From Gammaproteobacteria bacterium (GTDB lineage: Bacteria; Pseudomonadota; Gammaproteobacteria; Enterobacterales; Psychrobiaceae): a stretch of DNA of 33,044 bases. Under the pieces are notes generated by a model, which saw nothing but the letters and a program-made list of their open reading frames with translations, had not been told where the DNA came from and did no database searches. Location of the stretch: positions 1 to 33,044 of the forward strand of contig JABSRU010000046.1 in assembly GCA_013214965.1 (NCBI GenBank), given 5' to 3'. Shown here in pieces: positions 2,738 to 8,167 of this stretch (positions are counted from its first letter, which is position 1; every line of letters starts with the position of its first letter). The translations under genes and the position numbers were made by a program.

Positions 2738-2832
2738 GCTATTACCCTTTAATTTAATCGTTGAAAAACTATGCTATCAGCCTACCATAACGGAGCATAT
2801 TTGAATGACATCATTAGCCTAATTTTAAATAA

Positions 2833-2863
2833 AAAAGCAGCCCCCCATCGGAGTGCTGCTTTT
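2833..2863 (-). terminator. rho-independent terminator of the protease/cohesin operon
   Basis: A 9-bp perfect stem (AAAAGCAGC / GCTGCTTTT) with a 13-base loop lies 26 bases beyond the stop of the PEP-CTERM gene. On the minus strand it is followed by a run of T (TTTTTTATTT). It sits where termination of the 6995-2889 transcription unit is expected. Confidence 0.8.
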
Positions 2864-2888
2864 ACTTATTATTATTTAGTCGCTAATG

Positions 2889-3428
2889 TTAGCTTTTGCG
2901 GTTAACTCTCACCAACGCAAAGCCAGCAACTAGCATCATTAGCGCTATACTCGGCTCTGGGACTGACACAGCAGCGTTAACTTGAGTTAAAGAAGTTCCC
3001 ACATAACTCGCGCTATAATCAACGGCATAATCTGACCCTGTCGCGCCAAAATCACTAACGCCAACAGCCATTGCGATTAAATCAAAACTCGCCAACACGA
3101 AATCACCAGTAACGGGGGTGAAGAGATCGGTCAAAAAATTAAATGAAATACCATCACTTTGAGATTCAAATTCTAAACCATAAAATGGATCTACCCCATC
3201 AAATAAAGTTAAATCAGTGGTTAATGAAGCGCTGTCAAACGAGAATACGCTGGTATCGAATGCAAAATCGACCCAAAATATATCTGTATCGACAAAATTT
3301 TGAGCGTTAATGGTAACGGTTAAACTGTCACCGACATTCACTTCATTTGACTGAACATCAATAGTTAACAAACTTGCATTGGCACTAAAACCAAGTATTA
3401 GTGCCATAATTGCGATAAATTTTTTCAT
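2889..3428 (-). CDS. cohesin-like PEP-CTERM protein
   Basis: A 179-residue exported protein. The start MKKFIAIMAL (3428) is preferred over the frame's first ATG at 3449 because AAGGAAATAATA precedes it. A signal peptide ends near SANA (residue 19). Residues about 20-140 have the character of a cohesin domain: TIDVQSNEVNVGDSLTVTIN, then a strand pattern FWVDFAFDTSVFSFDSASL, and late GDFVLASFDLIAMAVGVSDF, matching the 'VNVGDTFTV...V.Y....L.F' and 'G.LA.ITF.A...G' blocks of cohesins. Residues 156-179 are a PEP-CTERM tail: VPEP, a hydrophobic helix, then RVNRKS. PEP-CTERM tails are recognised by an exosortase (not in this window). The gene follows the dockerin-containing protease by 24 bases and shares its terminator, so it is probably the protease's cell-envelope partner. 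The cohesin call is by motif reading. Confidence 0.75.
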   Translation of the reverse strand: MKKFIAIMALILGFSANASLLTIDVQSNEVNVGDSLTVTINAQNFVDTDIFWVDFAFDTSVFSFDSASLTTDLTLFDGVDPFYGLEFESQSDGISFNFLTDLFTPVTGDFVLASFDLIAMAVGVSDFGATGSDYAVDYSASYVGTSLTQVNAAVSVPEPSIALMMLVAGFALVRVNRKS

Positions 3429-3452
3429 TATTATTTCCTTTTTAAACATCCA

Positions 3453-6400
3453 TTATTGAACAGGACGACAGCCAGCAGTGTCATAATCAACCACAATGGT
3501 TGCCCCTGCTGAAGCGCCTTGTAACTGGATATAACTCCAGTAATTTAATGTCGAGTCGAGCTCAATATAGATGCAAGCCTGATTATTTGATTCAACCGCA
3601 CTATGGTCATAATCGCCATTGGCAATATTTGGCCACGTACCATTTCGGTAGTAAAGCGACAAATCACCAGCGCCATGAGCAACGGTAATAGCCATCGTTT
3701 GATGGTTTTTCACGTCTGGAATCGCAAAGCTTCGACCTAATGCATCGCCTAAACAAGCAACACTACCCGCTTCTAACGTGCCTTCCTCAAACACTGACTC
3801 TATGGCACAGCTATTAACTAGAGCACCGTAATTAATGTTAATCGTTAAGCTATTAGTCGCAGTCATGCCATCATTATCGGTAACGGTTAATACCACGTTG
3901 AATTGACCGGTGGTGTGAAATACATGGCTAGGATTTGGTTGAATGCTGCTTTCACCATCACCAAAATTCCACGCGTAACTGACAATACGTCCGTACTGAT
4001 CAGATGAACCATCACTGCTAAAACTAACCGCTTCAAATTGAGTCGCACTCCCTTCACCAGAAGCGACTGCAACAGGTGCTTGCGGTGGCGGTGCAACATT
4101 AGAACAACGATCATACGAACAAAGTCCACGCATTAATCGGACATCTCTGGTGTTAACCACGCCATCTTGATTAAGATCGAATGAATCATCGAGAGTTTGA
4201 CCAGCACGGATGGCACGCATAAATGCTCGAATGTCATCACGGTCGACATCACCATCGCCATCCATATCACCGACAGGGATAACGGTTACTTGACTGGTTG
4301 ACGTTGCTGTAGCCCCTTCATTATCGGTCACGGTTAACCCAATGTTATATTGGCCCACTTCGTTATAAACATGAATTGGATGCTCAAGTTCACTGGTACT
4401 CCCATCACCAAAGCGCCATAAATAACTAACAATTTCACCGTCAGCATCCGTAGAACCTTCGCTTGAGAAGGTCAATTCATTACCGCTAATTACCTGATAG
4501 TTACCATTGGTGTTAGCAATCGGCAATTCATTAGGTAACGAATGATCTGCATCATCTCGAATATCGTAATAGGCTTTAAGTGTCACTGCACTATAAGCTT
4601 TAAAGGGATCAATCATGACATTAAAAATGCCACCAGCGGTAAACTTACACTGTTCCATCGCGCCTGGACCTTCCCAAGGTCGACAGCTATAGACTTCTTT
4701 CGATACAGCAACATTATGTCCAACGTGTAAATCAGGATCGCCATTAGAACCCGCTACAATTTCAATCACTACTAATGACGCAGCATTAGGGACACTGAAA
4801 TGATAAGTACGAGGTGTGGCTCCTTCTGGTGATGACAAATCAACATCTTGTGCTAAATAAACCCGACGACAACCGTCACAAAGTGGCTCATCATTTGGAT
4901 TATACAAAGTAATATTAACTGGTGAAGTCGTTGATGACGTAGCGCCATCATTATCAGTCACCGTTAGTGTCACTGAGTATTCACCAAGATCTTGATACTG
5001 ATGAACAGCATTAGTCTCGTCGCTGGTATAACCATCGCCAAAGTCCCAATGATATTGCGTTATCTCACCATCAACATCGACCGCAGCGCCGCTATTAAAA
5101 TGAAGTTGATGATTAATAATCCCTTGATAGCTTGCGGCAATATTTGCAAACGGCGGCTGGTTATTTTGATCGCGCGTTTCATAATAAACATGTAGCTCAG
5201 CATCCCAATATTCGGCAAAGGGATCAATCATGATATTAAATACACCACCTTGATTAAATTGACAATATTCTGCCAATTTAGCGGCGCTAAAAGGTTTACA
5301 GTCGGCGGTCGTCGTATCCACCGGCTTATTACGGCTCACGTACATGTCGGGATCGCCACCATAGGCACCGGCAAGTACCACCACCACTTTTTCTGCATTA
5401 TCAGGGATCGAAAATTGATACCTTTTAGGAGCATCATCTTTAGGCGACCATAACCCAGCTTGCTTAATCACGTGAAAACGACGCTGACCAGCTTCAAGCA
5501 GCGGATCATCAACCGCTAAGACTTGTAATGTTGCATTATCATAGGCAGTGAACGCGTGAACAGCAGCATGATACGACTTATCAGTTTTAGGCCCTAATAT
5601 AGCAACAAATTCAGGTTGTCCAGCGGACAAAAATGAAATGAAGTCAGCTTGCCATTTACCATCAGCTTGTAGAGCTGGCACTTGCCCAGCTGAAACATAC
5701 ATATCAGGATCTTGAGTATAGCCGTCTAAATAGAATGCCAATGCTTGCGTACCTTGCGGTGCATCAATAACAAAGGTATCAACATCACCTTTATTCGCTG
5801 ACATATTGTTAAATGTGGCAATCTCCTCCCCTTGAGGGCCAAAATCCAGTCCCGAACGACCATCCCACTGATGTGGTGCATCAGTGGTTAAATCGCTTAA
5901 GCCCACAGCCACTAAATTCTCATTAGTCCATAACGCGTTACGAGCATTACCGTGTAAAGCAGCGGTCATTCTCGCGACTTGATCTTGGGTAAACATCGCG
6001 TAATTACTGGTGTAATGCATGAAGTTTTCAGTATTAGTCGCCTGGCCCAAACAATTTTGTGAATTTTCATACATATCAGTCGACAGTGACATTTGTGGTG
6101 TATCACAACTTCTGTCACCCGTTAAGCTACAAAATGTTTCATTAGCCAGCGAACAAGTGTCACCAGAAAACGTATGCGGTAGGTTGAGCCAATGGCCGAA
6201 CTCATGAGTTAACACCGAGCGAAAATTCTCATCAGTGTTATCGCCAACGTACCAACCGTTATAAACAACTCGCGCCGTGTTTGCTGCGGTCATTGCACTA
6301 TCTGGGTACCAGGCAACCCCAGAATTATTAGTTGAACCGTCATCATATAAATCGTTCATGATATAAACGTTCATATATTTGTTGTTGTCCCAAGCATCAG

Positions 6401-6995
6401 CGGCGATCAGTTGATCTGATCCCGTGCCATTACCATAACCGGCTTGATCACGGTTATAACGTACAATACCAGTACTTTGTTGGCCAACCGGATCTTTTTT
6501 AGCCAGTACAAATTCAATATTTAGATTTTCTCTAATCGCCTGAAATTGTGCAGCAATCGGACTATCGTGGGTATTTGTTCCTTGAAAATCCTCATTGAGT
6601 CGCAGTAAAGCATTGACGATTTTATCATCGGTTAAACAACTTTCTTCACTATCACTACAGGTGAATTGCTCACCATAAACGTGAAAAACTACCGGAATAT
6701 AATATCGCCCAGCAATGCCATCCCCAAATGATAACGCATTAGTTGTCGCAGCACGTAAACGACTTAGCAACGATTTAGGTTGTTGCTGCTCGATAGCAGA
6801 GTATCGTAATTCTTGGCTTATTTTTTTTTGTAATTTTGCCCAGTCTTGACCATTTCCATCAATGGCACATACCTTACCGGCAGAAGTGTTTGAATAATTT
6901 GTTAATGGAATGTGTTGCCCAGCAATGGATGAAAATGATGCCGACAACAGCATAATCATAGACAGTGCTTTTCTCTGTTGATGTATACGAAGCAT
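3453..6995 (-). CDS. secreted M43-type metalloprotease with PPC-like, PKD and dockerin modules
   Basis: A 1180-residue secreted protein. The signal peptide is about residues 1-26 (...FSSIAG). The catalytic domain (about 95-350) carries the metzincin motif HEFGHWLNLPH (zinc ligands H264, H268, H274; catalytic E265) and a Met-turn around M326 (ENFMHYT), as in pappalysin/cytophagalysin M43 enzymes. Cys residues flank this domain as is usual there. After it come modular repeats: PPC-like beta domains near 385-495, 505-610 and 712-815; PKD domains near 615-700, 825-905 and 970-1055, each with W-x-FGDG; and a dockerin type I-like double EF-hand at about 908-960 (DMDGDGDVDRDD and DLNQDGVVNTRD). A last PPC-like domain ends the protein. 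There is no PEP-CTERM tail. AAGGA precedes the ATG. It should degrade extracellular protein; retention on the cell could be through the cohesin-like protein encoded just downstream. Confidence 0.9.
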   Translation of the reverse strand: MLRIHQQRKALSMIMLLSASFSSIAGQHIPLTNYSNTSAGKVCAIDGNGQDWAKLQKKISQELRYSAIEQQQPKSLLSRLRAATTNALSFGDGIAGRYYIPVVFHVYGEQFTCSDSEESCLTDDKIVNALLRLNEDFQGTNTHDSPIAAQFQAIRENLNIEFVLAKKDPVGQQSTGIVRYNRDQAGYGNGTGSDQLIAADAWDNNKYMNVYIMNDLYDDGSTNNSGVAWYPDSAMTAANTARVVYNGWYVGDNTDENFRSVLTHEFGHWLNLPHTFSGDTCSLANETFCSLTGDRSCDTPQMSLSTDMYENSQNCLGQATNTENFMHYTSNYAMFTQDQVARMTAALHGNARNALWTNENLVAVGLSDLTTDAPHQWDGRSGLDFGPQGEEIATFNNMSANKGDVDTFVIDAPQGTQALAFYLDGYTQDPDMYVSAGQVPALQADGKWQADFISFLSAGQPEFVAILGPKTDKSYHAAVHAFTAYDNATLQVLAVDDPLLEAGQRRFHVIKQAGLWSPKDDAPKRYQFSIPDNAEKVVVVLAGAYGGDPDMYVSRNKPVDTTTADCKPFSAAKLAEYCQFNQGGVFNIMIDPFAEYWDAELHVYYETRDQNNQPPFANIAASYQGIINHQLHFNSGAAVDVDGEITQYHWDFGDGYTSDETNAVHQYQDLGEYSVTLTVTDNDGATSSTTSPVNITLYNPNDEPLCDGCRRVYLAQDVDLSSPEGATPRTYHFSVPNAASLVVIEIVAGSNGDPDLHVGHNVAVSKEVYSCRPWEGPGAMEQCKFTAGGIFNVMIDPFKAYSAVTLKAYYDIRDDADHSLPNELPIANTNGNYQVISGNELTFSSEGSTDADGEIVSYLWRFGDGSTSELEHPIHVYNEVGQYNIGLTVTDNEGATATSTSQVTVIPVGDMDGDGDVDRDDIRAFMRAIRAGQTLDDSFDLNQDGVVNTRDVRLMRGLCSYDRCSNVAPPPQAPVAVASGEGSATQFEAVSFSSDGSSDQYGRIVSYAWNFGDGESSIQPNPSHVFHTTGQFNVVLTVTDNDGMTATNSLTININYGALVNSCAIESVFEEGTLEAGSVACLGDALGRSFAIPDVKNHQTMAITVAHGAGDLSLYYRNGTWPNIANGDYDHSAVESNNQACIYIELDSTLNYWSYIQLQGASAGATIVVDYDTAGCRPVQ

Positions 6996-7408: not shown

Positions 7409-8167
7409 ATGTTTAATAAATTTGTTGCTTCAACTTTGCTATGCAGTGCTGCGTTAGCTGGGATGGCAAATGCCACATTAGTGGATTTAGAACTTCAACT
7501 GTTAACGGATGTATCGACTAGTATTTCAGATGCTCCTTGGGGCAACGAGTACGGACTACAATTACAAGGATATTCAGCAGCATTTAGAAATGAATCGATT
7601 ATTGACGCAATCCTAGCTGGAAAAGAAGGTAGCATAGCGGTTCAATACATTGAATGGTCTGATTTTAATAAACAAGCCGTTCAGTTAGACTGGATATTAA
7701 TTGACAGTAAAGAGTCTGCTTTAGCTTTTGCTGATTCACTTGATGCACTAACTCGTCAATATCATGGTAATACAGCGATTGGTTCAGCGATCAATTATGG
7801 TGTTTCTAAATTCTTTAACAACGGTTTTACCAGCAACAGACAGGTTATTGACATTTCTGGTGACGGTGAGATTAACGATGGTGCGCCTATTTCAGAAGCT
7901 CGTGATGCAGCATTTTTAGCTGGTATAGATACCATTAATGGTATCACTATTGGTGATGAGTCTGGTCTTAGTGAATTTTATATCAATAATGTTATTGGCG
8001 GTTCAAATGCCTTTCATTTACACGCTACAGATTTTTCTACCTTCAATGCTGGCATTCAACAGAAGCTATTAAGAGAAATTTCAACTCAAGTGCCAGAGCC
8101 AACATCCATTGCTTTGTTTGGTCTAGGTCTACTTGGTATGTCACGGTTAAATCGTAGTAAAAAATAG
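7409..8167 (+). CDS. VWA-like DUF1194 protein with PEP-CTERM tail
   Basis: A 252-residue exported protein. The signal peptide ends near ANA (residue 22). The body is a von Willebrand A-like domain of the DUF1194 type: D34-V-S36-T-S38 (MIDAS DxSxS), a Thr in GNTAIGSAIN, and DISGDGEINDG, all expected metal-site positions. Residues 228-252 are a PEP-CTERM signal: VPEP, a hydrophobic helix, and the basic end RLNRSKK. It is probably processed and anchored by an exosortase encoded elsewhere, as is the cohesin-like protein on the other side of the divergent region. AAGGAAATATA precedes the ATG. A ligand is not predictable; VWA domains usually mediate metal-dependent protein binding. It is monocistronic, closed by a strong terminator. 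Confidence 0.88.
   Translation: MFNKFVASTLLCSAALAGMANATLVDLELQLLTDVSTSISDAPWGNEYGLQLQGYSAAFRNESIIDAILAGKEGSIAVQYIEWSDFNKQAVQLDWILIDSKESALAFADSLDALTRQYHGNTAIGSAINYGVSKFFNNGFTSNRQVIDISGDGEINDGAPISEARDAAFLAGIDTINGITIGDESGLSEFYINNVIGGSNAFHLHATDFSTFNAGIQQKLLREISTQVPEPTSIALFGLGLLGMSRLNRSKK

Follow-up and report, generated by a model that had tools for sequence, protein, structure and literature searches.

A dockerin-bearing M43 protease and a small PEP-CTERM cohesin protein as a probable anchoring pair in a gammaproteobacterium

A 33,044 bp stretch of DNA (hereafter the window) from a Gammaproteobacteria bacterium of the family Psychrobiaceae [GCA_013214965.1; contig JABSRU010000046.1] contains adjacent genes for a secreted M43 metalloprotease with a dockerin domain (P0002) and for a small cohesin-like protein with a PEP-CTERM tail (P0001). 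Comparison with the sequences of related bacteria indicates that the two proteins probably form a matched anchoring pair, in which an exosortase-sorted cohesin holds the dockerin-tagged enzyme at the cell envelope. The evidence comprises the domain families of both proteins, the order of their genes and its recurrence in other genomes, the covariation of the two sequences and their co-occurrence with exosortase.

According to the proposed scheme, P0002 would be exported via its signal peptide and would have no anchor of its own. P0001 would be exported too, and exosortase would recognize and process its tail, after which the cohesin would stay in the envelope or matrix. Once across the outer membrane, the dockerin would plug into the cohesin, supposedly in a calcium-dependent manner, and the protease would be held by a separate, co-expressed adaptor. 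The enzyme would thus stay close to the cell, which would benefit from its products, and related bacteria would fit the same dockerin-cohesin module to other exoenzymes.

Structure of the two-gene unit

The features of the unit are as follows.

3453..6995, minus strand: P0002, 1180 aa secreted M43 metalloprotease with PPC stretches, three PKD domains and an internal dockerin
5955..6419 (residues 193-347), minus strand: M43 catalytic domain (PF05572, E=3e-54), motif HEFGHWLNLPH read in translation
4098..4271 (residues 909-966), minus strand: dockerin domain of P0002 with two calcium loops and CxxxxC (PF00404, profile A2)
3429..3452, minus strand: 24 bp intergenic gap; AAGGA in it is a likely ribosome-binding site, judged from sequence
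2889..3428, minus strand: P0001, cohesin-like PEP-CTERM protein, 179 aa from the ATG at 3428 (reading frame open from 3449)
2970..3371 (residues 27-160 of the long open reading frame), minus strand: cohesin domain of P0001 (weak PF00963 match; family profiles against PDB)
2892..2963, minus strand: PEP-CTERM tail VPEPSIALMMLVAGFALVRVNRKS of P0001 (TIGR02595, above cut-off)
2826..2868, minus strand: hairpin with U-run, likely terminator of the unit (-20.1 kcal/mol, z=-5.1)

An earlier interpretation made from the letters alone (the sequence-only reading) had the coordinates and reading frames right, and its length of 179 residues for P0001 agrees with a start at 3428; this start is probable since relatives of the protein begin with MKK and AAGGA stands ahead of it. 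The two genes appear to form a single unit because a strong hairpin with a U-run comes after P0001, a hairpin that was not among the sites listed by a separate terminator pattern scan.

P0002 has a signal-peptide-like N-terminus (judged by eye) and belongs to the M43 family by both its PF05572 match and its HExxH...H zinc motif. As the sequence-only reading had it, the protease carries a dockerin and no PEP-CTERM tail: its C-terminus is not hydrophobic (best 15-residue mean hydropathy of 1.07 in the last 40 residues, compared with 2.37 in P0001), and PEP-CTERM models gave no match to it.

P0001 begins with a signal-peptide-like stretch, followed by a domain of 134 residues and the tail, which scores 17.3 bits with TIGR02595 (cut-off 16) and 14.5 bits with PF07589, below the cut-off of 20.7. 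At E<=0.01, PF07589 is matched by 12 of 34 relatives of P0001, and several relatives have VPAP or SAP tails instead. VPAP or SAP replaces PEP in nine cohesin proteins (L019, L022, L026, L027, L095, L096, L097, L110 and L111), and each of their seven source genomes has an exosortase match. A plasmid search with P0001 gave no matches.

Assignment of the proteins to the dockerin and cohesin families

In a search of the single protein, PF00404 matched residues 909-955 of P0002 with E=5.5e-4 and 20.5 bits, without reaching the cut-off of 22.9; in the genome scan the same domain scored 25.5 bits, above the cut-off. A profile of related dockerins (A2, described below) gave 95 bits (E=1e-26), P0002 being one of its 12 seeds. 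The domain is a type I dockerin: it has two calcium-binding loops, DMDGDGDVDRDD and DLNQDGVVNTRD, in F-hand repeats, and the calcium-ligand columns are invariant in the 12 dockerins. Against PDB, the top matches of the dockerin profile were dockerins of known structure (2y3n_B, 3.4e-7), followed with weaker scores by calcium-binding EF-hand proteins.

P0001 belongs to the cohesins by family profile and not as a single sequence. On its own it matched PF00963 with E=0.019 and 15.6 bits, where the cut-off is 24.1, so the Pfam comparison proposed by the sequence-only reading was borne out by family profiles and not by P0001 alone. A single-sequence phmmer search of PDB returned only antibody chains (E about 1) and was not used for the cohesin claim. 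In contrast, a profile of 14 P0001 relatives found a cohesin as its best match in PDB at E=1.3e-12, and a profile of 34 tail-less cohesin domains (A6) reached 4.1e-13. Among the 24 PDB sequences matched by A6 at E<=0.01, 19 carry names referring to a scaffoldin, a cohesin region or a cellulosome anchoring protein, four are NagJ fragments (its cohesin module), and one, 7urp_A, bears the name 'Ribonucleases G and E'. Thus the second claim of the sequence-only reading, a downstream gene for a cohesin-like domain followed by a PEP-CTERM tail, stands on these profiles and on TIGR02595.

The cohesin domains are diverged (mean column identity 23%), and PF00963 is matched at E<=0.01 by 13 of the 34 P0001 relatives (best 3.2e-6). 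In the whole genome of the window, generic Pfam models found one copy of PF00404 and none of PF00963, and A6 found three cohesins, all small. Family profiles were used because the generic models miss this branch. The cohesin fold is a nine-stranded jelly-roll; an AlphaFold2 model of P0001 (alignment of three rows, predicted local distance difference test score, pLDDT, 56) has only strands between the signal and tail helices but is of too low quality to bear on the assignment.

Recurrence of the gene pair beside unrelated secreted enzymes

Order-wide searches covered 394 genomes and searches within the family f7 covered 191. With P0001 as the only query, 13 matches were found in 11 of the 394 genomes at E<=1e-5; together with a further copy in P0001's own genome (E 4e-5) this gave 14 loci, including P0001. 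All 14 have a gene with a dockerin domain immediately upstream in the same orientation, which is the outcome of the search for the same gene pair that the sequence-only reading had suggested. Twelve of these upstream dockerins form the alignment A2, with invariant calcium ligands and two invariant cysteines, and the other two (L021, L025) are of another sequence type and score above the Pfam cut-off. The partner enzymes are unrelated and include M43 proteases, M9 collagenases, ExeM-type nucleases, a glucuronyl esterase, a porphyranase (L105), a BNR_4 protein (L093) and others. The pair is no singleton even within the genome of the window, which has three of them with three different enzymes: the M43 protease (C91), an M9 collagenase (C130) and an ExeM-type nuclease (C44). 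Since the same pair recurs beside unrelated secreted enzymes, it looks like a general device for retaining enzymes at the cell surface.

From the dockerin side, the A2 profile revealed 41 dockerins in 26 of the 394 genomes at E<=1e-6, and the neighbourhoods of all 41 were inspected. A cohesin is encoded by an adjacent gene at 27 of them; 12 of the 41, however, had served as seeds and came from paired loci, and without these the proportion, a fairer estimate, is 15 of 29. Starting from the cohesins, three more pairs came to light in which the dockerins are weaker (L124, L125, L126).

A dockerin scan of genome contigs confirmed three named loci. Thalassomonas sp. RHCl1 (L089) has an M43 protease with a cohesin, Bowmanella pacifica (L090) has a cohesin with a 1348 aa dockerin protein that resembles the nucleases L018, L019 and L028, and a metagenome-assembled genome of Methylococcaceae has a dockerin locus at which no cohesin match was found. 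Two further loci, L154 and L173, seem identical to L089 and L090 and were never counted together with them in any test. One survey scored up to eight candidates per genome, and many of these were tail-only matches, with weak ones in three genomes of the same genus as the window's.

The same enzymes with and without a dockerin

To these counts can be added a comparison within single enzyme families, in which only a cohesin encoded downstream within 400 bp was counted and the fetched stretches were mainly downstream; no cohesin was seen elsewhere in them. The protease part of P0002 had 23 matches in 14 genomes of f7. Two short fragments in G442 were left out, and 20 matches in one set plus that of G243 (L109) were inspected. 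In the set of 20, a cohesin is present downstream of eight out of 10 M43 relatives with a dockerin and of none out of 10 without it (p=7e-4).

ExeM-type nucleases were detected in 141 of the 191 f7 genomes, with NF033681 confirmed in the query and in three other sequences checked. Among the matches listed, 40 were sampled: 38 at about every fourth row, with known loci skipped, plus those of G416 and G417. A cohesin accompanies 14 of the 18 versions with a dockerin (12 of 15 strong and two of three weak ones) and none of the 22 without (p=1e-7), where those without include two regions that end before the end of the protein (L180, L183) and one that ends in a dockerin-like stretch missed by the profile (L166). 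Three of the 22 (L161, L162, L172) end in a hydrophobic stretch followed by basic residues, a GlyGly-CTERM kind of tail in the terms of the sections consulted of PMC3237569 and PMC6085458. In this sample no protein was seen with both a dockerin and a covalent-type tail; therefore the two look like alternatives.

Covariation and gene layout

Over 31 pairs, similarity between dockerins is correlated with similarity between their cohesins (r=0.49, 0 of 5000 permutations), and the correlation persists in the 346 of 465 comparisons that involve unrelated enzymes (r=0.39, 0 of 5000). Shared descent of both genes as a unit would yield such covariation just as selection for binding would.

The position of the cohesin gene follows that of the dockerin. 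Among the 27 paired A2 dockerins, all four N-terminal ones (L117-L120) have the cohesin gene upstream, and for the 23 at the C-terminus or inside the protein it lies downstream in 21 cases and upstream in two (L105 and L114; p=9e-4 for the layout). In the mirror layout of L117-L120 the dockerin lies at residues about 30-95; it occurs twice on one contig of G291, in proteins of 1871 and 2185 aa.

Unlike cellulosomal dockerins, 38 of the 41 found here contain a CxxxxC pair, which probably forms an internal clasp of the dockerin, since no cysteine is present in any of the 34 cohesin domains.

Two observations concern DUF1194/vWA proteins. One, encoded in the window at 7409-8167 (plus strand) divergently from the protease gene, has its own PEP-CTERM tail. 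Another, at L114, carries a dockerin and has a cohesin gene nearby upstream, a second case of tail versus dockerin.

Co-occurrence with exosortase

Exosortase (PF09721, above cut-off) was detected in 83 of the 394 genomes and in 25 of the 26 genomes with A2 dockerins (Fisher p=1e-17). In the genome of the window (G000) it is encoded at C95:13070-13816 (E=5e-71). The capture of the protease by the cohesin, as put forward in the sequence-only reading, is thus well supported, in comparative terms, by the profiles, the adjacency at all 14 loci, the covariation and the co-occurrence within enzyme families and with exosortase, and on these grounds it is likely; of the outcomes that the reading itself named as refuting, one occurred in part, as some relatives of the protease retain the dockerin with no partner found next to it (see below).

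Observations weighing against the anchoring pair

Several results speak against such pairing. Firstly, 14 of the 41 A2 dockerins (14 of 29 without the seeds) have no adjacent cohesin; 349-2029 upstream bases were inspected at these loci, and the whole-genome A6 search covered all their genomes. In eight dockerin genomes (G022, G046, G109, G123, G136, G223, G243, G272) A6 finds no cohesin, so a dockerin can exist without this cohesin. The only Pfam cohesin match in these eight, in G109, was sub-threshold and lay in an Ig-like protein, and it was rejected. Secondly, three of 11 dockerin-bearing M43 relatives of P0002 (L109, L149, L150) have no cohesin beside the dockerin. For L149 and L150 only about 300-370 upstream bases were inspected, and their genomes (G546, G516) were outside the A6 whole-genome search; G243, the genome of L109, has neither a cohesin detectable by whole-genome search nor an exosortase match. 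Thirdly, the cohesins L123 and L136 have no dockerin gene seen alongside, the stretch available for L136 being only 3.4 kb. Finally, the AlphaFold2 model of the dockerin, made from a three-row alignment, is as poor as that of P0001 (pLDDT 57 and 56, respectively), and the exosortase co-occurrence is confounded by ancestry, which explains part of it because most of the 26 genomes belong to f7.

The same direction is indicated by eight genomes of the same genus as the window's, in which searches with P0001 or A6 revealed no cohesin; in five of the eight there is no PF09721 match either. Judging by the search output, the window spans all of contig C91, and the contamination estimate of the assembly is 3.25%. 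Transfer or mis-binning of the contig is therefore possible. This uncertainty about the host leaves the pair itself untouched, as it recurs in Thalassomonas sp. RHCl1 and Bowmanella pacifica.

Four of the 14 unpaired dockerins (L112, L113, L115, L116) adjoin another small protein with a PEP-CTERM-like tail, and ten have neither. L112:545-4389, L113:691-4741 and L116:841-4681 encode P-domain proteins in which the cysteine pair of the dockerin is relocated to the first calcium loop and the end. Their small neighbours, of 254-280 aa, share a PEP-CTERM-like tail and a common CTL motif and are perhaps a second kind of anchor. Three ExeM-type nucleases (L101, L103, L171) have extra residues after the dockerin (...SLFSR, ...AGLFSR and a Ser/Lys/Asn-rich tail, respectively) and no adjacent cohesin. 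The orphan L136:1315-2019 (G347) encodes a cohesin-like protein with PTPEP repeats before its hydrophobic tail; immediately downstream of it is a glycosidase-like open reading frame that runs off the stretch.

Alternative explanations

One PEP-CTERM cohesin may serve several dockerin enzymes encoded in the same operon or elsewhere, which would make it a minimal single-cohesin surface complex, a small shared scaffold. We consider this rather unlikely, since the 34 aligned cohesin proteins are 172-245 aa long, with room for one cohesin domain, and 27 of the 41 dockerins have their own adjacent cohesin. Some loci nevertheless fit it. At L138:205-8041 (G424) three genes stand in a row, encoding an M43 protease with a dockerin, a PEP-CTERM cohesin and an M9 collagenase with a dockerin, and the two dockerins are identical at 46 of 57 positions. 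Since a single cohesin gene lies here between two enzymes with similar dockerins, the anchor may be shared, and the 'one-enzyme' scaffold of the sequence-only reading was too narrow. Genome G271 encodes four dockerin proteins without an adjacent cohesin (GH42-like, GH86-type porphyranase, LTD nuclease and BNR_4; L098, L099, L102, L104) and two cohesins elsewhere, the orphan L123 and the pair L124, possibly a small multi-enzyme set. In the genome of the window the dockerins of the M43 and M9 enzymes share 60% identity, so cross-binding between these two pairs is likely.

It is improbable that the dockerin is a mere calcium-stabilised structural module, that the cohesin-like neighbour binds something else and that their adjacency reflects operon history. 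The 14 dockerins without an adjacent cohesin would be explained in this way, as would the protease relatives L109, L149 and L150, which retain the dockerin with no partner found, and the internal position of the dockerin in P0002 and L016, where a PKD domain comes after it. However, the adjacency holds across unrelated enzymes and both sequences co-vary, a cohesin was seen beside none of the dockerin-less relatives (0/10 and 0/22), and the cohesin gene mostly lies on the side of the enzyme gene that codes for the dockerin. A polysaccharide- or matrix-binding role of the cohesin fold, with the dockerin bound to a different surface component, would suit the low identity of the cohesins and the partnerless L123 and L136 but is very improbable, given that the nearest solved relatives are scaffoldin cohesins and that 13 of 13 non-self P0001 matches adjoin a dockerin gene.

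Relation to known systems

The pairing of cohesins with dockerins is best known from cellulosomes. By profile, the proteins described here belong to the same families as cellulosomal pairs (3l8q, the cohesin of scaffoldin adaptor B; dockerin 2y3n_B), with the dockerin on the enzyme and the cohesin on the anchor. P0001 nevertheless differs from a cellulosomal scaffoldin: it has one cohesin domain, no CBM or SLH domain by Pfam, and a tail for predicted PEP-CTERM/exosortase sorting, and the partners in this system are mostly nucleases and proteases. The cohesin of NagJ (2jh2, 2ozn_A) is one of the closest solved structures to A6 (E 3.2e-7). It is non-cellulosomal and part of a secreted enzyme, an O-GlcNAcase; in contrast, the cohesin here forms a small protein of its own that ends in a sorting tail.

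In the sections consulted of the respective reports, cohesins and dockerins of ANME (anaerobic methanotrophic) archaea stand outside cellulose degradation and are suspected to act in surface attachment (PMC5244752, PMC9012536), archaeal cohesin-dockerin bonds are stated to have been verified (PMC9012536), and the function of the pair outside cellulosomes is called unknown (PMC5244752). The latter source gives cohesin, dockerin and exosortase together as domain counts. In these sections both reports offer domain lists and suggested functions and do not describe a conserved unit of two genes in which a single cohesin is sorted by exosortase. Dockerin-bearing proteases, namely subtilisins, were listed earlier (PMC2605481, part consulted). 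Enzyme families including ExeM vary in their C-terminal sorting device, PEP-CTERM/exosortase or GlyGly-CTERM/rhombosortase, according to the parts consulted of PMC3237569 and PMC6085458; unlike in those enzymes, the tail here is on a separate protein.

In a search of open-licence papers from PubMed Central, we found no paper joining cohesin or dockerin with PEP-CTERM, or PEP-CTERM with cellulosomes, and none on dockerin plus cohesin in Alteromonadales. Single examples may be contained in the works of Peer et al. from 2009 and Haft et al. from 2012, the former reportedly a review of non-cellulosomal cohesin/dockerin proteins.

Significance of the pair

Tentatively, it can be hypothesized that the pair is a detachable sorting tag, in which the Gram-negative exosortase signal has moved from exoenzymes to a small cohesin and a cognate dockerin-cohesin module replaces the covalent GlyGly-CTERM or PEP-CTERM tails on many unrelated enzymes; these might include proteases, collagenases, DNases and algal polysaccharidases. 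If this is true, a single anchor could, through sorting in trans, retain one enzyme or several and perhaps set them free at low calcium.

The system is compact: a single enzyme goes with a single cohesin and one means of sorting, and this set recurs across many genomes with various enzymes. For this reason its role is testable by deletion of a single small gene. It offers small binding pairs, perhaps orthogonal, for surface display in Gram-negative bacteria. For the bacteria themselves, the anchoring pair would give exosortase a concrete job, that of holding active exoenzymes.

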